Source: Deltaproteobacteria bacterium
Lineage (GTDB): Bacteria; Myxococcota_A; Polyangia; Polyangiales; Houyiibacteriaceae
Direction of reading: 5' to 3'
NCBI GenBank assembly: GCA_004283055.1
Contig: SHLP01000013.1
Coordinates: forward strand, 1-48,344
Length of the DNA stretch: 48,344 bases
How positions within the stretch are numbered: position 1 is the first letter of the stretch; every line of letters begins with the position of its first letter. Shown one piece after another: positions 6,601 through 28,477 of the stretch. The translations under genes were made by a program, and so were the position numbers. The notes beneath the pieces are model-generated. The model was not told the DNA's origin. It saw only the letters and a list, made by a program, of their open reading frames with translations, and searched no databases.

Positions 6601-7310
6601 TTCCGGCGATCGATTTGCTCGACGGCAAGGTCGTCCGCCTGCACCAGGGGAAGTACGATCAGGTGACCGTCTACGACGACGATCCCGTCGCCATGGCCAG
6701 GCGTTTCGAAGGTCAGGGCGCCGAGCGGCTTCACGTCGTCGATCTCGAAGGGGCGCGTCGCGGTCAGCCCGCGCACGTTCCCACCATCGAGGGGATCCTT
6801 CGCGAGACTAAGCTTCAGGTTCAGGTGGGTGGCGGCGTTCGCAACGAGGATATCGCGGCCCAATGGATGGGTGCGGGCGCTGCGCGCGTCGTCCTTGGTA
6901 CGGTGGTCGTCAAGGAACCAGACATCGCGCGGGCGATCTGCGATCGCTATCCCCGGGGAGTCGTGATGGCGCTCGATGCCCGCGACGGAAAAATCGCCGT
7001 CGAGGGTTGGCAGGAGCAAAGCGCGCAGGACGTCACGGAGCTGGCGAAGCAAGTCGATGGATGGAATATCGGCGCCATCCTGTTTACCAACATCCACAGG
7101 GACGGCACCCGGGAGGGGCCGGACGTCGAAGCCACGGCCCGCTTGCAGTCTCAGGTCCAGACGACCGTGATCGCCTCGGGCGGCATTGGCTCGCTCGACG
7201 ATCTTCGTGCTCTTCGTGCCGCGGGTGTTCGTTCGTCGGTTTGCGGGCGAGCGCTGTATTCGGGGGCCTTCAGCCTGCCCGAAGCCTTCGCTGCGCTCGA
7301 GGAGTCCTGA
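6591..7310 (+). CDS. hisA: ProFAR isomerase (HisA)
   Basis: 1-(5-phosphoribosyl)-5-[(5-phosphoribosylamino)methylideneamino]imidazole-4-carboxamide isomerase, a (beta/alpha)8 barrel catalysing the Amadori rearrangement before HisH/HisF. It has 239 residues, normal for the family. Asp8 (PAIDL) and the Asp of the RDG motif near residue 171 are the expected catalytic acids. The phosphate-binding glycines QVGGGVR and ASGGIGS are present. The start is GTG inside the end of hisH, with GGGAG 7 bases upstream. Its stop shares one base with the hisF ATG (TGATG), a tight translational coupling. Confidence 0.95.
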
Positions 7311-8086
7311 TGCTGGCTAAGCGAATCATCCCCTGTCTCGACGTCAAAGAAGGACGCGTCGTCAAGGGCATCAACTTCGTTGGGCTTCGAGACGCAGGCG
7401 ATCCGGTCGAATCGGCGCAGCGGTACAGCGCTGGCGGGGCGGACGAGATCACCTTCCTGGACATCACGGCATCGCACGAGAACCGTCGGACTCTTTTCGA
7501 CCTGGTCGACCGCACCGCGTCTACCGTTGCCGTTCCTCTCACGGTCGGCGGCGGCGTGCGAGAGCGCCGTGATGTGAGTGAGCTCCTCCACGCTGGCGCC
7601 GACAAAGTCTCCATCAACAGCGCTGCCGTATCGAACCCGGACTTCATCAAAGAGATGGCTGAGGCGTACGGCTCGCAGGCGATTGTGGTGGCGATCGACG
7701 CAAAGCGGGTTCCCGGGCAAACCGAGAACTGGACGGTCTATACGCACGGGGGAAGGCGGGACACGGGTCTTGATGCGATCGCCTGGGCCCGGAAGATGGC
7801 TGACTACGGCGCTGGAGAAATCCTTCTGACCAGCATGGACCGCGACGGGACCCAGGATGGCTATGATTTGCTGTTAACTCGCACAGTTGTGGACGCAATC
7901 TCGATTCCGGTTGTAGCTTCCGGGGGTGTGGGGACCCTGCGGCACGTGCACGAAGGTTTGGCGGCGGGAGGAGCGGATGCGGCGCTTGCGGCTTCAATCT
8001 TTCACGACGGTCACTACACTGTGGCGGAGGTCAAGGAGTACTTGCTCGACCATGGGGTCTGTGTGCGCCCGCCTGAGCGGGATTGA
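7310..8086 (+). CDS. hisF: Imidazole glycerol phosphate synthase, cyclase subunit
   Basis: Cyclase partner of HisH: it uses channelled ammonia to form imidazole-glycerol phosphate and AICAR. It has 258 residues. The catalytic aspartates are Asp11 (IPCLDVK) and Asp130 (VAIDAKR), and phosphate loops VGGGV and ASGGVG are present. The open frame extends upstream through hisA, but the ATG at 7310 gives the standard N-terminus and overlaps the hisA stop by one base, with GAGGAG 5 bases upstream. No hisI, hisE, hisG or hisD follows, so the rest of the pathway must be elsewhere. Confidence 0.95.
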
Positions 8087-15472: not shown

Positions 15473-16303
15473 ATGCAACGTTCATCCCATTGGGCGCTCT
15501 TGTTGGCGTTTGGATTGTTGTTGGGCTTCGGCATGCGCGCCGACACGGGGCGGGCGAGTGCCCGGTCACCGAGCGTCCTAGAGCAATCCATGGGCGACAT
15601 CCAATGGGGCTGGTCCCCGAAACAGGTGTATCGCCATCTCAAAAAAGAGATCGAAGCTTCGTACCAGGAGCCGATCGCGAAGACGACCGATGCCATCGAA
15701 GAGGATCGACTTCGACATAAGATGTCCGAGGAGACCCGAGAGATTCGCGATTCGTACTTGGAGTTCGACGGGACCCCTAGCGCCTACGATTCCGGTTACT
15801 TAAAGGGTGAGTTCACTCAGAGAAACGGCGAATCGCTTCTTCGGGTGCGAACCGAGAACACACAGGATTTCTTCTTCTTCATCAACGAGCGACTTTGGAA
15901 GAGATACCGCGCGTTCGATTCGTCCGTGTTCGAAGGCGCCAGCTTCGAGGAATTCGGCGCCGCGCTTCAGCAACGCTACGGCAAGGCAAAGACGAAGAGC
16001 GGTGTCCGCACGCCGGGGACACCATCGACCCAATGGCTGGAGTGGAAAGAGCCCAAGGTCCTGGCTCGCGCGGTGGACAACAACGAATTCTACGGCTTTT
16101 ACTGCCTGATCCTCGAGGATCGAAAAACGGTCGCCCAACTCGGCAAGCTCCGAAAGAACAATGCCGAGCAGGCCGAGGCAGGCGGTGGCCTGGTCGATAT
16201 GGTCGCGGAACAGAGCGACGAAGACCAGAACGCGGATATCGCCGACCGCATCACCGGCGAGATCCGACGCCACGACCGGCCTGAAGTCGTCGAAGCGAAG
16301 TAG
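15473..16303 (+). CDS. Secreted/periplasmic protein of unknown function
   Basis: I do not recognise the family. With the ATG at 15473 it has 276 residues. A basic N-terminus and a hydrophobic core (WALLLAFGLLLGFGM) make a signal peptide, cleaved near residue 25-30. The mature part carries GDIQWGWSPKQVYRHL, a charged helical region, and then a beta-rich segment with W and F (TQWLEWKEPKVLARAV, EFYGFYCLILED). The last ~60 residues are acidic and low complexity. The frame is open for 250 codons upstream across the EI24 gene, but only this ATG, behind GCGAGGG, gives a signal peptide. It lies 65 bases after the EI24 gene and may be transcribed with it. Confidence 0.72.
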   Translation: MQRSSHWALLLAFGLLLGFGMRADTGRASARSPSVLEQSMGDIQWGWSPKQVYRHLKKEIEASYQEPIAKTTDAIEEDRLRHKMSEETREIRDSYLEFDGTPSAYDSGYLKGEFTQRNGESLLRVRTENTQDFFFFINERLWKRYRAFDSSVFEGASFEEFGAALQQRYGKAKTKSGVRTPGTPSTQWLEWKEPKVLARAVDNNEFYGFYCLILEDRKTVAQLGKLRKNNAEQAEAGGGLVDMVAEQSDEDQNADIADRITGEIRRHDRPEVVEAK

Positions 16304-16380: not shown

Positions 16381-17169
16381 TTGCGGTATCGTTTACGGTT
16401 TCATCTACAAGAGATCGACCTGGTTGGTGACGAGGTCATCATCGGCCGTGGTGCGATGGGGCAGATCACCATCGACGACCCGATGCTTTCTCGCCGCCAC
16501 ATCCGAATCGATCTCTCCGGCAGCGCGCCGACCGTGGAGGACCTCAGCAGTCGCAACGGCACCCAGCTCAACGGACATGCGCTCGTCGACCGGGCGACTC
16601 TGAGCGATGGGGACCGCATTCGTATCGGGACGCAGGAGCTGGTGTTTTTGGCGCCAGAAAGCGGAATGAAGAACGACCGGAACACGAGTGCACTTCGGTT
16701 TTGCGTCGGCTGCGCGATCCCGTATCCGGCGCGGAGCCCACACTGCCCGCACTGCGGAACCGCCCAGGACGACGAAGGCGGCAGCACCGACGCGCGCGAC
16801 GCCGTAGCATCCGGATGGACCTTCCACTTGCTGTCGCAGGTCGCCGCTCGCGCGATCGACCAGGGGCGACTGACCGACGCGGAGCGAATGATGTCTCGAG
16901 GCGTCACCGAGCTCGAAGAGCAGCTTGCCACGGGAATCGAGGTCGAATCGGCTCGTGTGCTCGATGTCGCCGAATGCTCCAGCAGGCTCGGCTGTGCTCT
17001 CCGGAGCCCGCGCTGGCTTGGAATCGGCGCCAAACTCTACCGGCGCGGGGGAGAGGCACCGTCCCGCGAGGTGCTCACGCTGGTGGACGACCTGCCGGCG
17101 GACCTCGGTTTGGATGCCGCGATCGACGAGCTGCGTCACGCCGGACCTGGGACGCGCCGCGCATCTTGA
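16381..17169 (+). CDS. FHA domain / zinc-ribbon protein (paralogue A)
   Basis: A 262-residue cytosolic protein with three parts. Residues 1-95 are an FHA phosphothreonine-recognition domain (IIGRG, SRRH, DLSSRNGTQLNG). Residues ~107-130 are a C4 zinc ribbon (FCVGC...CPHC). Residues ~145-262 are helical. The only usable start is the TTG at 16381, preceded by GAAAGG at 8-base spacing; an in-frame stop sits 15 bases upstream. It is a full-length paralogue of the gene that converges on it: both share the FHA core, the zinc ribbon and the helical motif (A-x-x-x-G-R-x-x-[DE]-AERM). FHA proteins usually read Ser/Thr-kinase signalling; a membrane Ser/Thr kinase lies ~8.5 kb away. Partners are not known. 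Confidence 0.82.
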   Translation: MRYRLRFHLQEIDLVGDEVIIGRGAMGQITIDDPMLSRRHIRIDLSGSAPTVEDLSSRNGTQLNGHALVDRATLSDGDRIRIGTQELVFLAPESGMKNDRNTSALRFCVGCAIPYPARSPHCPHCGTAQDDEGGSTDARDAVASGWTFHLLSQVAARAIDQGRLTDAERMMSRGVTELEEQLATGIEVESARVLDVAECSSRLGCALRSPRWLGIGAKLYRRGGEAPSREVLTLVDDLPADLGLDAAIDELRHAGPGTRRAS

Positions 17170-17174
17170 CCCGC

Positions 17175-18095
17175 CTAGTTGGCGGAAATGACCTGCTCGA
17201 GCCCTTCTAGCCGACCCACGAGGAATCGCTCGGAGGCGCCGTAACTCGACGACTGTTCCCGGATGACCCTGAGGTAAGCCTGCAGGTAGTTGGTCTGGGA
17301 GTACTTGTGAGTGCGAACGAGCTCATGGAGGGTTTCGATCGTTTCGGGCTCCATCAGGCGACCCGTCGCCGTGTGAATCCGAAACACCCAGTCGATCCAT
17401 CGCGTGTTCCGGAGGCCTCGTGCGAGCTGGAGCGCATATCCGGTCGCTCCCGCAAAGAGGGCGTCGGGGTCGTCTTTCTCGGATTCGCTCAATGGTCGGT
17501 CGACTACCGCGCGTTCGAGAATCGTATCGAGGTGAGGGAGCAACATGCGCTCGGCTTCCTCGAAGCGGCCCATTGCGATCGCCTTGCTGGCGATGCCTGC
17601 GATGACGTCCAGCGCGCGTTGCGTTCGCGTATCCTCGGCACCCCATGCGTGGGAGCTCGAATCGACGCTACGTTTGCTGGCAAGGGTTTTCGAGGCGTCG
17701 GAGCTGAGGCGCTTCCCGCAATCGCCACAGCGGCGCTTCGCTACACCGTTGATCGCACCACAGGATTCGCAGACGACGTAGTCGCCGGTAGGGGCCGTAC
17801 GCTCCTTGAGCTTCGCCGCATCGATGAGAACGAGCTCTTGGGAGCCGATATAGACGCGGTCCATGTGCTCGACCCGGCGCGGACCGTTGATGCGCACCCC
17901 GTTGACCGCGACACCGTTGCGGCTGCTGAGGTCTTCGACCACGACCGTATCCGGGCCCACATGAAGCATGGCGTGTTTTCGCGATACCAACCCATCGGCC
18001 AACGCGAGATTGCAGGCCGAGCTACGACCAATGGTGAACTCCCCGAGAGGCATCTCCATGTTGGTCGACTGATATCGCAGTCTGAATCGCGCCAC
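17175..18095 (-). CDS. FHA domain / zinc-ribbon protein (paralogue B)
   Basis: A 306-residue protein laid out like paralogue A: FHA domain (FTIGRS, SRKHAML, DLSSRNGVAVNG), C4 zinc ribbon (VCESC...CGDC), and a helical C-terminal domain. Start choice: GTG at 18095 gives an N-terminus MARFRLRYQ that aligns with MRYRLRFHL of paralogue A. A TTG at 18164 would add 23 residues and sits 15 bases after the upstream gene. It is second in a minus-strand operon behind the bitopic Pro-rich protein gene and ends 5 bases from paralogue A, tail to tail. A role as adaptor that reads Thr phosphorylation is inferred from the FHA domain. Confidence 0.83.
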   Translation of the reverse strand: MARFRLRYQSTNMEMPLGEFTIGRSSACNLALADGLVSRKHAMLHVGPDTVVVEDLSSRNGVAVNGVRINGPRRVEHMDRVYIGSQELVLIDAAKLKERTAPTGDYVVCESCGAINGVAKRRCGDCGKRLSSDASKTLASKRSVDSSSHAWGAEDTRTQRALDVIAGIASKAIAMGRFEEAERMLLPHLDTILERAVVDRPLSESEKDDPDALFAGATGYALQLARGLRNTRWIDWVFRIHTATGRLMEPETIETLHELVRTHKYSQTNYLQAYLRVIREQSSSYGASERFLVGRLEGLEQVISAN

Positions 18096-18179: not shown

Positions 18180-19298
18180 CTAGAAGCTCGCGATTTCTTC
18201 GAGACCGGCGACCGACCCGAGTCCCTTCTCGAGGCTGCCCTGGGTCTGCAGCGTCGAGTCCATGAGCCTGGACAGCTCGGTCAAGTCCCGCCGATAGGAA
18301 GCGAAGGCGTTCTTGCGCTGCCCGAGGACGCCCGCCGACTGATCCGGGTTCGTCAGAATCACGTAGTTGCTTGCATTCTGGCGCAAATCCTGCCCCGAGT
18401 AGAGCTCCTTCTCGAAGGGCTTGCTGCCACGCGTCGCCCGTACTTTTAGCTTTTTTGTGCCGGCCTCCGAGTCAGGCATGTCGACATAGACCAAACCACA
18501 GCGAAAGCCCCCTTCACCGAGGGTCGGAACACAGCCGGTGGGGCTCGTGGTGAGGGCGGTCTCGTCCTGCGCTGCCTCGTCGAGCTCGAGGCGTCGCGGC
18601 TCCGGGAGAACCCGCGCAGCGACGCTGTCGAACCGATCCCAAAGCTCGCCGACTTGGCGCGCATACAGGAACAACGAATTGACGGTCTCGGCATTGAACT
18701 TGGTGTAGTTCAGTCCGGTGAAATCAGCCGCCGTAAATGGAGTCGGAAGGGCGCGAAGTCGTTCGATGGCGTCATAGTCGACCGTGGGGCCTTCTCCGGG
18801 CCTCGATTTCGCTGCATCGGCCGCCCGATCGAGGAGCCGCTTGGCCTCTGTGACCTGGTCAGCTGCGGCGCGAACGCCTTGGTACACCGCCTTGCCGTCG
18901 CGGACGGCGACGTTGTACGCGGTACGCTTGCTCATGACGGTCGTCGCAAGCACGCCGAGGAACAAGCCGAGTAGGGCGGCTCCCGCGCCGCTCATCATCA
19001 TCAGCTTGCGGACGCGGCGGTTCTTGCCTTCGTGCGCCGTCGTGACGGCCTGCTCGTCGACGACGATACGGACTTCGCGCTGCGCGCTTGTATCGGCTGA
19101 CGTACCTCCGAACGGCCCCGATCGCTTTGCGGCCTGTCCTCCCACGAAACCGGGCGGAGGCGCGACGCCACCGAGCGTCGGTGGCGGGGGCGCAAGGCCT
19201 CCTTCTTCGACGGTCGTTGGCGGCGGCGCGGCCGTTTGCCGGCCGAGTCGCTCGCGTATATCGCGGACTTTCTTGGATTTTTGGAGTTCGTCTGACAT
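18180..19298 (-). CDS. Bitopic Pro-rich membrane protein linked to FHA protein
   Basis: A 372-residue protein of no family I recognise. Residues 1-100 are cytosolic and disordered: a basic start (KSKKVRDIRERLGR), then a Pro/Gly-rich stretch with a PPPTTVEEGG segment that could be a phospho-Thr ligand for the adjacent FHA protein (inference). A basic patch NRRVRK precedes one membrane segment (~103-122). The remaining ~250 residues are predicted periplasmic: a helical part (AADQVTEAKRLLDRAADAAK), a two-Cys beta segment (GCVPTLGEGGFRCGLVYVD), then a C-terminal helix. The two Cys could form a disulfide. The ATG at 19298 follows a strong promoter so closely that the mRNA leader would be only a few bases and has no Shine-Dalgarno. 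Confidence 0.75.
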   Translation of the reverse strand: MSDELQKSKKVRDIRERLGRQTAAPPPTTVEEGGLAPPPPTLGGVAPPPGFVGGQAAKRSGPFGGTSADTSAQREVRIVVDEQAVTTAHEGKNRRVRKLMMMSGAGAALLGLFLGVLATTVMSKRTAYNVAVRDGKAVYQGVRAAADQVTEAKRLLDRAADAAKSRPGEGPTVDYDAIERLRALPTPFTAADFTGLNYTKFNAETVNSLFLYARQVGELWDRFDSVAARVLPEPRRLELDEAAQDETALTTSPTGCVPTLGEGGFRCGLVYVDMPDSEAGTKKLKVRATRGSKPFEKELYSGQDLRQNASNYVILTNPDQSAGVLGQRKNAFASYRRDLTELSRLMDSTLQTQGSLEKGLGSVAGLEEIASF

Positions 19299-21914: not shown

Positions 21915-22708
21915 CCGATTTCTTGTCCGAGATTCTGGCGCGCAAACGCCGCGAAAACGAGAGGCGCCGACGCCACCTTGCCGCCGCGAGGTCCGTCGAG
22001 CGACCGCCCCAGCGCGAGAGGGCTGAAAGGGGAATTCGCGCCCTGCGCCGCACACCGGGTGAGGCTCCCTCGGTGCTGGCCGAGGTGAAGTTCCGAAGTC
22101 CAAGCGCGGGGGAAATCCGTCCGAGGAGCGCTGGGGAGGGCGTGCGCGTTGCTCTGGCGTATGAACGTGCGGGCGCAGCGGCCGTCAGCGTCCTAGCCGA
22201 CGGCCCCGGCTTCGGGGGGTCGCCCCTCCTAGTCCGTCGAGTCGCCGAGGCGGTGCGCGTTCCGGTGCTTTACAAGGGCTTCGTCCTCGATCCGATTCAA
22301 GTAGACCTGGCGTACGATGTTGGCGCCTCGCTCGTCCTGCTCCTGGTTCGTGCCCTCGGGGAGGCAGAGCTGCCCGCCCTGATCGAGCGGATACGGGCGT
22401 TCGGGATGGAACCGGTCGTCGAGGCAGCCAGCTCCGTCGAGGTCGATCGTGCCGTCGCGGCGGGCTCTACCATCATCGGTGTCAACGCACGCGACCTGAG
22501 TACCTTCCGTGTCGACATGGGCGCGGCGCGCGAATGCATCGCGCGAATCCCAGCCGGCTGCGTCGCTGTCTTCATGAGCGGCGTTCGATCGGCCGAAGAT
22601 TTTCGTGAGGTCGCGAGCGGCCGAGCCGATGCCGTGCTGATCGGCGAGGGCCTCATGCGCTTCGAGAACCCGGGCGTTCGGCTGTCCGAGCTCTTGGGGG
22701 CGGTCTGA
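21911..22708 (+). CDS. trpC: Indole-3-glycerol phosphate synthase
   Basis: Ring-closing and decarboxylating (beta/alpha)8 enzyme of tryptophan synthesis, 265 residues, without a fused TrpF domain. All six catalytic residues known from characterised homologues are recognisable: Glu58 and Lys60 (AEVKF), Lys122, Glu171 (VVEAAS), Asn192 (GVNARDL) and Ser223 (FMSGV). The surroundings are unusual. The common R-K-D-F around the catalytic Lys is Y-K-G-F, and S-E-S-G-I is F-M-S-G-V, so the enzyme is a diverged member. The last 56 bases overlap the 3' end of the convergent sensor-kinase gene. Confidence 0.92.
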   Translation: MTDFLSEILARKRRENERRRRHLAAARSVERPPQRERAERGIRALRRTPGEAPSVLAEVKFRSPSAGEIRPRSAGEGVRVALAYERAGAAAVSVLADGPGFGGSPLLVRRVAEAVRVPVLYKGFVLDPIQVDLAYDVGASLVLLLVRALGEAELPALIERIRAFGMEPVVEAASSVEVDRAVAAGSTIIGVNARDLSTFRVDMGAARECIARIPAGCVAVFMSGVRSAEDFREVASGRADAVLIGEGLMRFENPGVRLSELLGAV

Positions 22709-24368
22709 CCGAGTCCTCGTTGGTCGGCAGCGTGACCCGAAAGCAAGTGCCCGGTCCGTCGCGATCGAGGATCTCGATGCGCCCTTTGTGCTGGTCGACG
22801 ATCTGCCGCACCAGGGCTAACCCAAGACCGACGCCGTGCCGTCGGCCCGAATAGAACATGTCGAAGAGGCGCTCCCGCTCGGCCTCCTCGATGCCGGGAC
22901 CCTCGTCCGCAACCTCGAGGAAGGCGCGGCCTCGTGGATCCCGACCGGTCCTCACCTCGACCTTGCCTCCGCGAGGCGACGCTTGCAGCGCGTTCTTGAG
23001 TAGGTTCCAAACGACCTGCCGCATCCGATCGGGATCGACGATGGCGACGATCGGCTGATCCGGTTCGATCTCGTCGATCTCGAAGTCCTTGCTCGTGCTC
23101 GCTTCGCCGCGCGCCACCGCGACCACCTCGCCAGCGATCGAACGAAGGTCGAGCTCCTCGGTTTGAATCTGACTAGGTCGGCCGACCTGGAGCATCGTAG
23201 TGACGAGCGAATTGAGTCGCTCGACCTCGGAGATGACGATGCCGAGGAGCCGTGCATCCTCTCCGCTCAGAGCGTTGCCGTCGCGGACCATCTCCACCGA
23301 CCCGGAGATCGAGCTCAGGGGATTCCGAATCTCATGGGCCAAGCCGGTCGCAAGCTGTCCGAGCGCGGCCAGTCGCTGGGTGCGTTCCGCTTGCTCGCGA
23401 AGCGTCCTGATCTCGGTGAGGTCTTGGAAGGCGAGAAGCAAGCCAGAGGGATTCCCGTCCGAGTCCAGCAGCGAGCTGAGCGTGTAGCCTATGGGGAACT
23501 CGCTCCGGTCGGCGCGCCTTCCGATGGCTTCGGCGCGCCGCGGCGGCTCGCTCATGCGCTTGGCGCCATAGTCGGGGAGCACCGTCGAGAGCGGTTGACC
23601 AAGGAGCGACCCGGTATTGTCCCGAAGAATCTCCCTGGCTGCTCGATTGAGCCCCAAGATGTGTCCGTCGTCACCCGCGGTGATGAGTCCGGACGCAATC
23701 GAGCGGACGATGTCATCGTTGAGCCGAACCAGGCGTGCCGCGCTCTGCTCGGCCTCGAGGAGGCGGGCGCCCGCCACTTGTGCGCGCCGGGCAAGGTTGG
23801 TCGCGAGCAGCGCCACGGCAGAAATGCCAACCATGTTGCTCACCAGGGCCAGCTGGAAATCGCGTGAGCTCAGAACGTACTGGCTCAGGGGTTGGTCCGG
23901 CGGGGGCGGAAGCCAGCCGACGTTGAGCGCCAAAGCCTGGAAGAAGTAGCAAGCAAGACTTGCCGCCGCGGTGTAGTAGGCAGCGCCGGTTCCGAGCGTG
24001 AGCGCTGCGGTGAGAATCTGCGCGCCGTACAGGAAGGAGAAAATGCTTCCCGCGCCTCCTGTCAGGTACACCAATCCCGTGATCAGCAGCACGTCCAGAG
24101 TCGTGATCGCCGCCGCGACGCGCGTTTCACGACGGCCGCGAAGGAGCCAGACGCCAAACAGGATTGACGATCCGTAAATCGCCGAGATCAGGATTAGCAG
24201 GAACGTCGGCGTGAAGTGCCCGTATCGGATCGCGTCGAGCGCCAGGTACATCGTGGCACCGAGCAGCACCGTAGCGATGATGAGTCGCCCCCCGAGAACC
24301 CACTGCAGTCGTCGATTCGAGTTGAACTCATCTCGATCGAAGGTCGGGCTCTCTCGAGGTTGAATCAC
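22653..24368 (-). CDS. pilS: PilS-like sensor histidine kinase (PAS)
   Basis: A 571-residue sensor. Six membrane segments lie in the first ~195 residues, then a PAS domain (~215-320), a HisKA dimerisation helix with phospho-acceptor His345 (HEIRNPL), and a HATPase domain with N box (NLLKNALQAS), G1 (DEGPGI) and G2 (GVGLGLAL). This is the plan of PilS/NtrB kinases, which control type IV pilin genes through a sigma54 activator. The ATG overlaps the pilC stop by 4 bases, confirming the link to pili. No response-regulator gene follows; the gene ends inside trpC on the other strand. So the cognate PilR must be encoded elsewhere. The C-terminal ~20 residues are Pro/Arg-rich. Confidence 0.88.
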   Translation of the reverse strand: MIQPRESPTFDRDEFNSNRRLQWVLGGRLIIATVLLGATMYLALDAIRYGHFTPTFLLILISAIYGSSILFGVWLLRGRRETRVAAAITTLDVLLITGLVYLTGGAGSIFSFLYGAQILTAALTLGTGAAYYTAAASLACYFFQALALNVGWLPPPPDQPLSQYVLSSRDFQLALVSNMVGISAVALLATNLARRAQVAGARLLEAEQSAARLVRLNDDIVRSIASGLITAGDDGHILGLNRAAREILRDNTGSLLGQPLSTVLPDYGAKRMSEPPRRAEAIGRRADRSEFPIGYTLSSLLDSDGNPSGLLLAFQDLTEIRTLREQAERTQRLAALGQLATGLAHEIRNPLSSISGSVEMVRDGNALSGEDARLLGIVISEVERLNSLVTTMLQVGRPSQIQTEELDLRSIAGEVVAVARGEASTSKDFEIDEIEPDQPIVAIVDPDRMRQVVWNLLKNALQASPRGGKVEVRTGRDPRGRAFLEVADEGPGIEEAERERLFDMFYSGRRHGVGLGLALVRQIVDQHKGRIEILDRDGPGTCFRVTLPTNEDSVRPPPRARTAERPGSRSA

Positions 24369-25576
24369 TCCGCTTTGACTTTACCTGCGATCGAGAAGAT
24401 GGGCAGGTACATGGCAATCAGGATCGTGCCAACGATGCCACCGATGAAAACCATCATCAGGGGCTCCAGCAGCGAGGTGAGGGCCGCAACGGCGATGTCG
24501 ACCTCTTCTTCGTAGAAGTCTGCGATCTTGTTCAGCATCGTGTCGAGTGCGCCGGTCTGCTCGCCGACGCCGATCATTTGAACCACCATGGGCGGGAACA
24601 CGTTGGTTTCCATGAGTGGCTCGGCCATCGTTCGACCTTCGCGAATCTTGTCCGACGTCGTCTGAATCGCGGCCTCGACGACCACGTTGCCAGCCGACTT
24701 GCTCACCACGTCGAGGGCATCGAGAATCGGAACGCCTGCAGAAAGCAGCGTGCCTAGCGTGCGTGTGAACCGAGCCACGGAAACTTTCCGAATCACCGGG
24801 CCGAGAACTGGTAGCACCAACAGAGCCCTATGAACGAAGTGTTTGCCCGCCGGTTGACGGTAGATCCAGGTGGCGCTGAACACCAAAATGGCCGTCACCA
24901 GGATGATCCAATGGATGTTCGCAATGAAGCCTTCGGAGGCGGCGATGACCAACTGAGTGAGTGCCGGGAGTGAGTCTGCAGCGCCGAACTCCGCGAACAT
25001 CCCCTTGAAGCTCGGAATGACCCAAGCAAGCATGACGACCACGACGATCATCGCCACGAAGAAAATCGCAACCGGGTAGACCATTGCCCCACGGACCTGG
25101 CGCGCGAGCTTGACGCGCTTCTCGATGTAACCTGCGAGACGGTTGAGAATCGTATCGAGGATACCGCCCATCTCGCCAGCGCGAATGAGGTTGACGAAGA
25201 GCTCGTCAAAAAGCTTGGGATGCCTCGCTAGTCCGTCCGAAAATGTGCCGCCTTGTTCGACGTAGTCCTTGACGTCCTTGAGAATGGCATTGAGCGCCTT
25301 GTTTTCCCCGCGACTCGAGAGGATCTCCAAACATTGGACTAGGGGCAGACCAGCATCGATCATCGTCGCGAACTGGCGAGTGAAGATGACCAGCTCCTTT
25401 GCGTCGATGCCGGTGCCGAACGCCAAGCTGAGTTGGCGTCCCTTCTTCTTGATCTTGACGGGGTTCAGCTGGCGCGCGCGCAGCCTGGACTGCACGGCTT
25501 CCTTGTTGTCCGCCTCGATGATCCCTGTTTGGACTTCGCCCGCGCGAGTGCGCGCCTCGTATACCCACTCGGCCAT
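24365..25576 (-). CDS. pilC: Type IV pilus inner-membrane platform protein
   Basis: PilC/GspF-family protein of 403 residues that forms the inner-membrane base on which PilB and PilT motors act. Two T2SSF repeats are visible (~68-190 and ~270-395), each starting with a FTRQFATMIDAGLPL/FTRTLGTLLSAGVPI motif, with membrane segments near 170-190, 220-240 and 375-395. The N-terminal cytoplasmic segment WVYEARTRAGEVQTGIIEA is typical. GGAG lies 5 bases before the ATG. The gap to the kinase gene upstream is 75 bases and includes a short hairpin. The stop overlaps the pilS start. Confidence 0.95.
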   Translation of the reverse strand: MAEWVYEARTRAGEVQTGIIEADNKEAVQSRLRARQLNPVKIKKKGRQLSLAFGTGIDAKELVIFTRQFATMIDAGLPLVQCLEILSSRGENKALNAILKDVKDYVEQGGTFSDGLARHPKLFDELFVNLIRAGEMGGILDTILNRLAGYIEKRVKLARQVRGAMVYPVAIFFVAMIVVVVMLAWVIPSFKGMFAEFGAADSLPALTQLVIAASEGFIANIHWIILVTAILVFSATWIYRQPAGKHFVHRALLVLPVLGPVIRKVSVARFTRTLGTLLSAGVPILDALDVVSKSAGNVVVEAAIQTTSDKIREGRTMAEPLMETNVFPPMVVQMIGVGEQTGALDTMLNKIADFYEEEVDIAVAALTSLLEPLMMVFIGGIVGTILIAMYLPIFSIAGKVKAE

Positions 25577-25631
25577 GAATTCTCCGCCCGATCCCCTCCG
25601 GGCCTTTCAAAACCCTAGCTGATCACCGATC

Positions 25632-25651
25632 GCATGGTCAAAAAGCCATGC
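25632..25651 (-). other. Short inverted repeat after the kinase gene
   Basis: GCATGG and CCATGC form a 6-bp stem around an 8-base loop, immediately after the TAG of the Ser/Thr kinase gene. The T-run lies in the loop, not after the stem, so terminator function is doubtful. It could attenuate read-through into pilC. Confidence 0.3.
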
Positions 25652-27208
25652 CTAATTTCGAAATGAGCCGGTCACGTTGGTACCTGCCGGTTTCGCAGCC
25701 TCCGCTCGAGCGGGCTCCCCGCTAGGCTCCAAGTTCCCTGGGTTTTCTCGCTTGGAAGGCGTGCTGGGGGGCGACGGACGAGCCTCGAAGCGGTCCAGTC
25801 TGCCCTGGCCAGCCGGAGCTGGGCTGCTCGCACGTTCCGGTGCGGACACGGCTTGGCTCGACGGGGACTTGGTCGCGTCGGACGGATGGGCCCCGAGCTC
25901 TGTCGTGCCGGACCTGTCCGGCTCGGGAGCTTCGGCTGCAGTCGGGGAACGAAGTAGCTGAACGACCAGGAAGCCTGCGTACAGGAATACCATGATCGCC
26001 AGCGCCATCACGAACCACTTCAGCGCGTCGGACTCCGACGCGCGCCGAATCACGATCGGAGTCCCGTCGTCGAGCACTCCGGATACGGTTCCGCGGACGT
26101 GAGACCCGGTCTGGGCGCGCGTCGGGAAGCTCTGTGTGTCCATTGCGGTGCCCTCGCGGGGCATCGGAACGATCGAATTGCCGATGTCGGTGCTTCCGAG
26201 CATCTTGATGGCGTCACGAATTCGCTCGCGCTCGTCTTGCAGCTTGTCGGCATCCAAGTCCCGAACGACATCGGCGACTTCACGAGTCTTGGCAAGGCGC
26301 CCAGAGCCCACGGCCAATTCGAGCGATTCGGCAAAGTCGTCGGCACTCCGAAACCGCTCGTCCGGATCGCGGTTCAGCGCCTTCATCACGACATCGTCGA
26401 AGCGCTCGAGCTCGGGCCACAGCTCCGACGGCCTCGGCACCGAATCGTTCAGCAGCTTGTTGAGGGTCGCCCCATTCGACTCGCCCTTGAAGAGCCGACG
26501 TCCCGTCAGCGACTCCCAGAGGATGATGCCAACGCTGAACAGGTCGGAGCGCTGGTCGGTCGAGCTCGATGCGGCCTGTTCAGGCGCCATATAGGAGAGC
26601 TTGCCCTTGAACTGGCCCGCGCGGGTCGATGCCATGCGCACGTTGGCCTTGGCAACCCCGAAGTCGGTCAGCCGAGAAATGCCATCGGTGCCAACCAAGA
26701 TGTTGTGTGGCGAGACGTCACGGTGAACGAGCTTCAAAGGTTTGCCACGCTCGTCGCTGAGGCGGTGCGCCGCGGCCAAGCCCAGCAGTGCGTCGACCAG
26801 CACACGGCACACGAAGGGCTGGGGCAGTCTTTCTCCGCGCTTCGCGGCACGCCCGAGCAGTGCACCGAGGTGATTGCCTTCGATGTATTCCATCACCAGG
26901 AAGTAGCCGTCGCCCGGGCTATCGCTGATGTCGAGCGTAGGCACGACGTTCATGTGGCGAATTCGCGCCGCCAGCCTCGCCTCGTCGAGGAACATCGAAA
27001 TGAACTCCTGCTCGTACGCCAGATGAGGATGCAGCATCTTGATCGCGACGAGCCGCTCGAACCCGGCCACCCCTTGGGCACGCGCGGCGTACACGGACGC
27101 CATCCCGCCGGATGCCAGCTGAGTCAGGATCTCGTATCGGCCGAGGTGCCGACCCGCCATCGGTCGGGAAGGTGGAAGGGATCCTCGAGAGCTGGCGGGC
27201 GCATTCAT
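25652..27208 (-). CDS. Membrane-anchored Hanks-type Ser/Thr protein kinase
   Basis: A 518-residue bitopic kinase. The catalytic domain (~25-300) is complete: glycine loop LASGGMASVY, Lys57 (VAIK), catalytic Asp164 (HRDVSPHN), Asn169, Asp182 (DFG), and MAPE at the end of the activation segment. Ser replaces the usual Lys after HRD, as in many myxobacterial kinases, so it is not a pseudokinase. A juxtamembrane linker leads to one membrane segment (~398-419) and a short Pro/Ser-rich extracytoplasmic tail with no PASTA domain. AAGAGG precedes the ATG by 8 bases. It sits between pilT and pilC, which suggests control of pilus function or a co-opted insertion. FHA proteins ~8-10 kb away are possible readers. 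Confidence 0.92.
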   Translation of the reverse strand: MNAPASSRGSLPPSRPMAGRHLGRYEILTQLASGGMASVYAARAQGVAGFERLVAIKMLHPHLAYEQEFISMFLDEARLAARIRHMNVVPTLDISDSPGDGYFLVMEYIEGNHLGALLGRAAKRGERLPQPFVCRVLVDALLGLAAAHRLSDERGKPLKLVHRDVSPHNILVGTDGISRLTDFGVAKANVRMASTRAGQFKGKLSYMAPEQAASSSTDQRSDLFSVGIILWESLTGRRLFKGESNGATLNKLLNDSVPRPSELWPELERFDDVVMKALNRDPDERFRSADDFAESLELAVGSGRLAKTREVADVVRDLDADKLQDERERIRDAIKMLGSTDIGNSIVPMPREGTAMDTQSFPTRAQTGSHVRGTVSGVLDDGTPIVIRRASESDALKWFVMALAIMVFLYAGFLVVQLLRSPTAAEAPEPDRSGTTELGAHPSDATKSPSSQAVSAPERASSPAPAGQGRLDRFEARPSPPSTPSKRENPGNLEPSGEPARAEAAKPAGTNVTGSFRN

Positions 27209-27327
27209 CAGAAGCGCCTCTTGGCAGCGGCGGATCGTGAGCGGTCACATGTCGAAACGGCCGGCGCGATCCAAGCGCCGCTCATGGTCGTGCATCCCAT
27301 CACCAAGATCTCGCCATTAACGATAGT

Positions 27328-27348
27328 AAAAAACTCGGAGGAAGCCGA
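27328..27348 (-). terminator. Weak terminator-like structure after pilT
   Basis: On the minus strand, just past the pilT stop, TCGG pairs with CCGA around a 6-base loop; one base later comes a run of six T (27328-27333). The 4-bp stem is short. If real, it would partly separate pilT from the kinase gene, whose start is 141 bases away. The rest of that 141-base gap holds nothing I can identify. Confidence 0.35.
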
Positions 27349-27349
27349 A

Positions 27350-28477
27350 TCAGCCGCCGCTACGAATCGCCTGGTGGTAGCCCCTCTTGTCCAATTGATC
27401 GAGCATTAGACGGAATTCGTCGGGCTCCGGCGATCGGATCAAGGCTACATCGCGGTCCAACGCGCCGTGTGCGACCAAATGCAGGAGCGACTGATTCATG
27501 GTTTGCATGCCCGAGCTGCCCTGACCGGTCTGCATGATGCCGTACATCTGATGGACCTTGTCCTCACGAATCAGATTTCGAATCGCCACGTTCGGCACCA
27601 TCGCTTCGCAGGCCATCGCCCGGCCCGGTCCGTCGGCCCGAGGGAGTAGCATCTGGCTCAGAACGCCCTGAAGCACGAACGACAACTGGGCTCGGATTTG
27701 GCTCTGCTGGCCCGAAGGAAACACGTCGATGATACGGTTGATCGACTGCACTGCGGTATTGGTGTGCAGCGTTGCAAACACCAAATGGCCGGTCTCCGAA
27801 ATGGTGAGCGCAGCTTCGATCGTTTCGAGGTCTCGCATCTCGCCAACTAGGACGACGTCAGGGTCCTGACGTAGGACGTACTTGAGCGCGTCCTTGAAGC
27901 CCGCGGTGTCCGACCCCACCTCTCGCTGGTTGACCACGCAGAGCTTGTTCGAGTGTAGGAACTCGATGGGGTCCTCGACCGTCACGATGTGATGACGATG
28001 CTCGCTGTTGATCTTGTCGATCATCGACGCGAGCGTGGTCGATTTGCCAGAGCCCGTCGGCCCGGTCACCAAAACCAAGCCACGTGGTCGCGTGCAGAGC
28101 TCTGCGACGACCGGCGGCATCCCAAGCTTGTCCAGCGGCCGGATTTCGAACGGAATCGCACGAAACGCGCCAGAGACCGCACCGCGTTGTAGAAACACGT
28201 TGGCTCGGAAACGCGAGAGAGACTTCACGCCAAAGGAGAAGTCGATCTCGTGGCCTTTTTCGAAGCGTAGTCGCTGGTCCTCGGTCATCACCTCGTAGCA
28301 AAGCGCCTTGCTCTCGCGAGGCTTGAGCGGCGGCGTGCGCAGCGGCATCAATGATCCGTCGATGCGGAGTTGCGGCGGAGATCCCGTCGTGATGTGCAAA
28401 TCGGACGAGCCGCGTTCGACCATGAGTCGAAGCAACTGCCTGAGAGTGAGCTTTGGTGCCTCCTGTGGTGCCGCCAT
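27350..28477 (-). CDS. pilT: Type IV pilus retraction ATPase
   Basis: PilT hexameric ATPase (375 residues) that depolymerises the pilus to give twitching or social motility. The N-terminal PAS-like domain includes the GSSDLHITTGSPP motif. Walker A is GPTGSGKST (139-147), the Asp box is TVEDPIE, Walker B is VGEMRD, and the His box ISETGHLVFATLHTN follows. The AIRNLIRE retraction motif, which separates PilT from PilB, is present near the C-terminus. An ATG start follows 35 bases after the FAD-oxidoreductase-like gene. It is the first pilus gene of this minus-strand block. Confidence 0.96.
   Translation of the reverse strand: MAAPQEAPKLTLRQLLRLMVERGSSDLHITTGSPPQLRIDGSLMPLRTPPLKPRESKALCYEVMTEDQRLRFEKGHEIDFSFGVKSLSRFRANVFLQRGAVSGAFRAIPFEIRPLDKLGMPPVVAELCTRPRGLVLVTGPTGSGKSTTLASMIDKINSEHRHHIVTVEDPIEFLHSNKLCVVNQREVGSDTAGFKDALKYVLRQDPDVVLVGEMRDLETIEAALTISETGHLVFATLHTNTAVQSINRIIDVFPSGQQSQIRAQLSFVLQGVLSQMLLPRADGPGRAMACEAMVPNVAIRNLIREDKVHQMYGIMQTGQGSSGMQTMNQSLLHLVAHGALDRDVALIRSPEPDEFRLMLDQLDKRGYHQAIRSGG

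Follow-up and report, generated by a model that had tools for sequence, protein, structure and literature searches.

Paralogous FHA-domain proteins with a C4 ribbon and a helical C-terminal domain, encoded by adjoining genes in Polyangia, as putative phosphothreonine-reading adaptors

Polyangia encode very many Ser/Thr kinases, and to our knowledge few readers are known for them. The locus analyzed here lies in a stretch of 48,344 nucleotides from a member of this class (the window; contig SHLP01000013.1 of assembly GCA_004283055.1), in which two genes designated A and B encode proteins composed of an FHA domain, a four-cysteine (C4) ribbon and a helical C-terminal domain (Table 1). It raises the question of what such a pair of proteins does, how the pair arose and whether its two members act together. 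A reading made from the sequence alone (the sequence-only reading) had regarded the genes as an inverted duplication whose products share one layout and, as their staying together suggested, act as a pair, perhaps by reading different phospho-states.

The convergent, tail to tail orientation of A and B described in that reading is correct, with a spacer of 5 bases (17170-17174), and both start codons agree with those of relatives, in which the proteins open at the FHA domain (MxRYRLRF.. / MxRFRLRY..). When the own genome (an incomplete assembly of 4.3 Mb in 293 contigs) was searched with B, A was matched with E 1.9e-15 over query residues 2-240, i.e. nearly the whole of B. Profile comparison of the two helical domains with the FHA part removed gave a probability of 99.8% and E 1.4e-26 over 144 columns; these two matches and the tree described below bear out the claim that A and B are full-length paralogues. 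Both are maintained as proteins across many species. The A orthologues of the same genus, 62-83% identical, come from metagenome assemblies titled Myxococcales or Polyangiaceae, and relatives at 33-44% identity carry the titles Sandaracinaceae, Labilithrix, Sorangium, Polyangiaceae and others; by these relatives the window belongs in Polyangiales (class Polyangia, phylum Myxococcota). A pattern scan with A through a collection of bacteria and archaea gave 102 relatives, and the titles of the best 80 of these are all myxobacterial, delta-proteobacterial or unspecified bacterial.

Table 1 Positions in the window of genes A and B, of the domains that they encode and of the neighbouring genes P3 and X
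Feature	Position	Strand	Remarks
X, predicted exported protein, 276 aa, just upstream of A, same strand	15473..16303	+	signal-like start
Gene A, 262 aa, FHA + C4 ribbon + helical C-terminal domain	16381..17169	+	TTG start
A FHA domain, residues 1-93	16381..16659	+	Pfam PF00498 E 4.7e-16; structural matches to phosphothreonine-binding FHA domains
A C4 ribbon, C108/C111/C122/C125	16702..16755	+	invariant in 61/61 A proteins
A helical C-terminal domain, without Pfam family	16786..17145	+	
Gene B, 306 aa, FHA + C4 ribbon + longer helical C-terminal domain	17175..18095	-	GTG start
B helical C-terminal domain	17181..17627	-	seven helices in model
B C4 ribbon, C109/C112/C123/C126	17718..17771	-	mostly lost in relatives beyond the family
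B FHA domain, residues 1-95	17811..18095	-	Pfam PF00498 E 3.9e-16; fold matches
P3, bitopic membrane protein, just upstream of B, same strand	18180..19298	-	Thr22 codon 19233-19235

The FHA domains of A and B score 59.4 and 59.7 bits, respectively, with Pfam PF00498, above the curated cut-off of 20.7. The phosphate-binding residues GR, SRxH, SRNG and NG are present in both, and the complete signature has been retained in 57 of the 61 A proteins and 40 of the 48 B proteins. By sequence and by fold the two domains match the phosphothreonine readers FhaA, EmbR, GarA, OdhI and DgcB, and from these features we infer that they should bind phosphothreonine. In the structure models the FHA domains and the helices are confident (pLDDT 88 for A and 84 for B) and the arrangement of the domains is of low confidence (pTM 0.52 and 0.49).

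The ribbon has the spacing CxxC-x10-CxxC, with two knuckles, and is a putative zinc ribbon; no Pfam ribbon family was found above its cut-off in A or B, the best being DUF7577 in B (E 0.00066, 19.7 vs 28 bits). The ribbon has been kept in every A protein and in only 15 of the 48 B proteins, so the three-part layout ascribed to both genes holds for this A and this B and not for B in general. The helical domain is longer and better conserved in B than in A, and the G-R-x-x-[DE]-A-E-R-M helix noticed earlier is matched exactly in both (QGRLTDAERMM in A, MGRFEEAERML in B). In the libraries tested, Pfam and NCBIfam, no family covers the helical domain and no named family corresponds to the whole architecture, in agreement with the sequence-only reading. 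TPR_19 was matched weakly, with E 0.023 at best, by 6 of the 41 helical domains scanned, comparison of the helical-domain sequence with solved structures gave matches at chance level alone (best E 0.028), and in fold searches with the whole-protein models the match lists were filled by the FHA domain. Neither outcome that would have told against the sequence-only reading, database hits of A and B in unrelated families or a pair that is not conserved among relatives, was observed.

Among 187 genomes of the phylum Myxococcota searched for the helical domain 34 were positive, all of them Polyangia, and none of the sampled genomes outside this class had it. In the copies read the domain always stands behind an FHA domain, and some Polyangiaceae-like genomes encode up to about ten FHA-helical copies each. 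Fusion to other domains was considered for long frames of 492-815 codons in G034, G043, G104, G148, G175 and G187 and rejected on reading, as they show no recognisable second domain; the frames resemble stop-to-stop extensions preceding the FHA protein.

In a maximum-likelihood tree of 114 proteins (quick search, without bootstrap or an outside root) all A proteins fall in one clade and all B proteins in another, and the branch between them has 99% SH-aLRT support. Proteins from a second order of Polyangia (family f17: G196 and G274) are found in each clade, which indicates that the duplication predates the order Polyangiales; A and B would thus be ancient paralogues whose split is older than this order, a conclusion that rests on the presence of both orders in both clades. 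In the other order (L229) X, A and B lie on one strand, followed by P3 on the opposite strand, and in most other families of Polyangiales A precedes B on the same strand, the two often being 0-6 bases apart or overlapping. The tail to tail arrangement prevails in the window's family and several near families, and in a few genomes B precedes A or the two are divergent. Given the same-strand layout of the other order and most families, the tail to tail layout is derived, a later rearrangement. The tree and the tandem layout elsewhere rule out a recent inverted duplication, and with it the origin that the sequence-only reading had assumed. Variants of the pair were also seen: in some Polyangiaceae-like genomes (L239, L243, L167, L173, L175 and L184) A is followed by two consecutive B-type genes, and in L235 and L236 (G257 and G298) the position of A is taken by short FHA-only frames of 167-183 codons, with stops in one match, which look like decaying A genes.

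Whether the two genes stay together was followed across the relatives. Among the 95 A copies flanked by 2.5 kb of sequence on either side, B lies no more than 2.5 kb away in 84, in a count in which some genomes were entered twice (by handle and by record name). The conserved block MlaD-EI24-X-A-B-P3-hydrolase-TrpGDC is found in the window's family and several others; in Polyangiaceae-like families and in the other order the MlaD/Trp surroundings have been lost and A and B still adjoin. Adjacency so widely kept, the other order included, makes a functional link between A and B likely. B stands without A alongside in G021, G026, G046 and G052, and A and B are far apart in G043 and G048. The own genome (G000) has two further B copies, C192 (1656-2606, 67%) and C207 (94854-95762, 57%), with neither A nor P3 beside them (L009/L010); they branch inside the genus-level B group and are common to other species of the genus. 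Such B copies without A imply that A and B need not act together. The earlier claim that the two act as a pair therefore stands as far as their conserved adjacency goes and fails as a general rule, the link being not obligatory.

Some loci depart from this pattern in other ways. In G005 the C192-type B gene is doubled, and its second copy (L095:4110-4916) lacks the N-terminal FHA part. The complete-looking chromosome of G013 (L052, L096) has A and B about 190 kb apart, the block being cut between them, and a broken MlaD gene beside A; the separation could be genuine or could stem from misassembly. In G017 (L105) A (6904-7667) is split into two frames and P3 is split too, probably by sequencing errors.

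Two neighbours of the pair, P3 and X, neither with a Pfam family, are candidate partners. P3 is predicted by sequence reading to consist of a cytoplasmic tail, a single transmembrane helix and an outer portion that is conserved. Its tail carries a near-invariant basic motif, K/R-D-L/I-K/R-x-R-L-G/N-R/K, and in 40 of the 41 proteins having it the next residue or the one after that is Thr (in 4 more sequences the motif, or the protein end where it would stand, is missing). In the window the candidate site, Thr22, lies in KKVRDIRERLGRQT, and a search of the own genome for the motif gave a zero-mismatch match in P3 alone. Judged by its surroundings, the tail Thr could resemble a basophilic Ser/Thr kinase site readable by an FHA domain; the motif, rich in Arg and Lys, could instead mediate contact with membranes or nucleic acids. 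Where A is absent or distant P3 still adjoins B (L087, L088, L097, L098 and L245), and where B is distant X still adjoins A (L060 and L061). X accompanies A throughout the class, including the other order. In Polyangiaceae-like families P3 is not beside B, and the P3-like matches are weak and remote.

As to the writer of the phosphate, 41 protein-kinase matches over the cut-off were found in the own genome. A general kinase neighbour of the A-B pair was sought across 79 loci and seen in one clade alone: in the Labilithrix-like clade (7/79 loci) a Ser/Thr kinase gene (PF00069 E 1.4e-44) directly follows A-B on the same strand. The window itself contains a Ser/Thr kinase gene (25652-27208, minus strand, PF00069 E 1e-31) between pilT-like (27350-28477) and pilC-like (24365-25576) genes, inside a type IV pilus cluster (24365-28477, minus strand) about 6 kb from P3; a PilS-like histidine kinase gene (22653-24368) lies alongside.

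We propose that A and B, long diverged from each other, belong to a Polyangia-specific family of small adaptors in the cytoplasm, which would read phosphothreonine in a Ser/Thr kinase network; the chances of this reading as a whole we put at about even. A Hanks-type Ser/Thr kinase would write the phosphothreonine, the FHA domain would bind it, and further partners would attach to the helical domain and, in proteins that have kept it, to the ribbon; phosphorylation would in this way lead to the assembly of a protein complex via A and B. We infer that the two work in one pathway: B would dock on the phosphorylated cytoplasmic tail of P3, with Thr22 as the candidate site, and A would act together with the exported protein X, either at this site or on a common process. 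The adaptor reading draws support from the intact phosphate-binding residues, the fold matches and the number of kinases in the genome, and from the linkage of A and B in families without the MlaD/Trp surroundings. The kinase gene behind A-B in the Labilithrix-like clade is a further point in its favour, although its restriction to one clade counts against it. For P3 and X as partners speak the split loci, in which B stays with P3 and A with X, and for P3 also the Thr conserved behind its tail motif; the absence of P3 from the side of B in Polyangiaceae-like families counts against P3, and that P3 is the ligand of B is a tentative suggestion, clearly less probable than the adaptor reading itself.

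The FHA domains could find their ligands closer at hand. A and B might be self-acting switches of the GarA/OdhI/DgcB kind, with the FHA domain of either protein engaging a phosphothreonine in the same polypeptide and with an acidic Thr motif just behind the ribbon as the switch of A. The sequence [DE][DE]-T-x-[SA]-G directly C-terminal to the ribbon is present in 42 of the 61 A proteins, against 0.21 expected from shuffled linkers, Thr102, N-terminal to the ribbon, is invariant in A proteins, and DgcB of Bdellovibrio is a precedent for an intramolecular FHA ligand (PMC6733907); yet the window's genus has lost the acidic motif and has EGxST or similar in its place, B proteins lack such a motif, and Thr102 may be structural, and we consider this explanation unlikely. 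We would give no better chances to a complex of A with B, in which one protein would present a phosphothreonine to the FHA domain of its partner, as ArnB does to the FHA protein ArnA in Sulfolobus. It would fit the adjacency kept across the order, the same-strand genes that overlap or nearly touch in several families, and the acidic Thr sites that B proteins of the family carry before the helical domain (AEDTRT, EEDTTK), but several genomes have lost A and kept B, and B copies without A have become fixed in the window's genus.

The linkage might also be nothing but inherited gene order, A and B being functionally unrelated today and rearrangement being rare. The retention of MlaD-EI24-X-A-B-P3-hydrolase-TrpGDC as a whole block speaks for it; the disappearance of the block from Polyangiaceae-like families and the other order, where A and B remain neighbours, speaks against it and makes it the most improbable of these explanations.

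Parts of this architecture are already known, namely an FHA domain with a single zinc motif and small FHA adaptors such as GarA/OdhI. In ArnA of Sulfolobus a single chain combines one zinc motif of four cysteines with one FHA domain that binds phosphothreonine; like the proposed adaptors, ArnA belongs to a kinase network, with ArnB as its partner protein (PMC6509490). It differs in being archaeal, in its N-terminal zinc motif of RanBP2 type and in the lack of a helical C-terminal domain, and ArnB is a vWA protein and not a paralogue of ArnA; the ArnA-like order (N-terminal RanBP2-type finger, then FHA) is not that of A and B, in which FHA, ribbon and helical domain follow one another. GarA, OdhI and FhaB of Actinobacteria, which the FHA domains of A and B match best in sequence, are small FHA proteins of the cytoplasm that act downstream of Ser/Thr kinases, but they have neither ribbon nor helical domain and are phosphorylated at an N-terminal site, not at linker sites. 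Membership in their families was rejected on the NCBIfam equivalog scores (53.6 and 58.8 vs 125 bits; 40.5 vs 200 bits). The FHA domain of DgcB from Bdellovibrio, a predatory delta-proteobacterium, reads a phosphorylated tail (PMC6733907) and matches A and B in fold (Z 16 over 93 residues); it is fused to a GGDEF enzyme, whereas A and B have no enzyme domain. TagH/VI_FHA and GltG resemble A and B in having further regions behind the FHA domain and match weakly, in the FHA part alone; TagH was rejected on NCBIfam TIGR03354 (31.7 and 34.6 vs 120.25 bits) and GltG on a match limited to the FHA part and far below the cut-off, and no type VI or gliding genes adjoin A-B. In the open-access literature we did not find an FHA domain with a zinc ribbon described in myxobacteria (PMC7159879 treats other systems), nor the order FHA-ribbon-helical, the helical domain or a class-wide paralogous pair of this kind.

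What has been conserved is a family of putative readers that share an unnamed domain and have two ancient members at their core, beside a neighbour whose tail carries a conserved candidate phosphosite. It is conceivable, though we think it rather doubtful, that A, B, P3 and X form a class-wide membrane signalling module from which the larger families of FHA readers, with up to about 11 copies per genome, have radiated. If true, paralogous FHA readers would link Ser/Thr phosphorylation of the P3 tail, via the helical domain, to an envelope process peculiar to Polyangia. The A/B locus offers a concrete place to seek a chain of kinase, reader and target in social, predatory bacteria, and one that could be tested with a few purified proteins.
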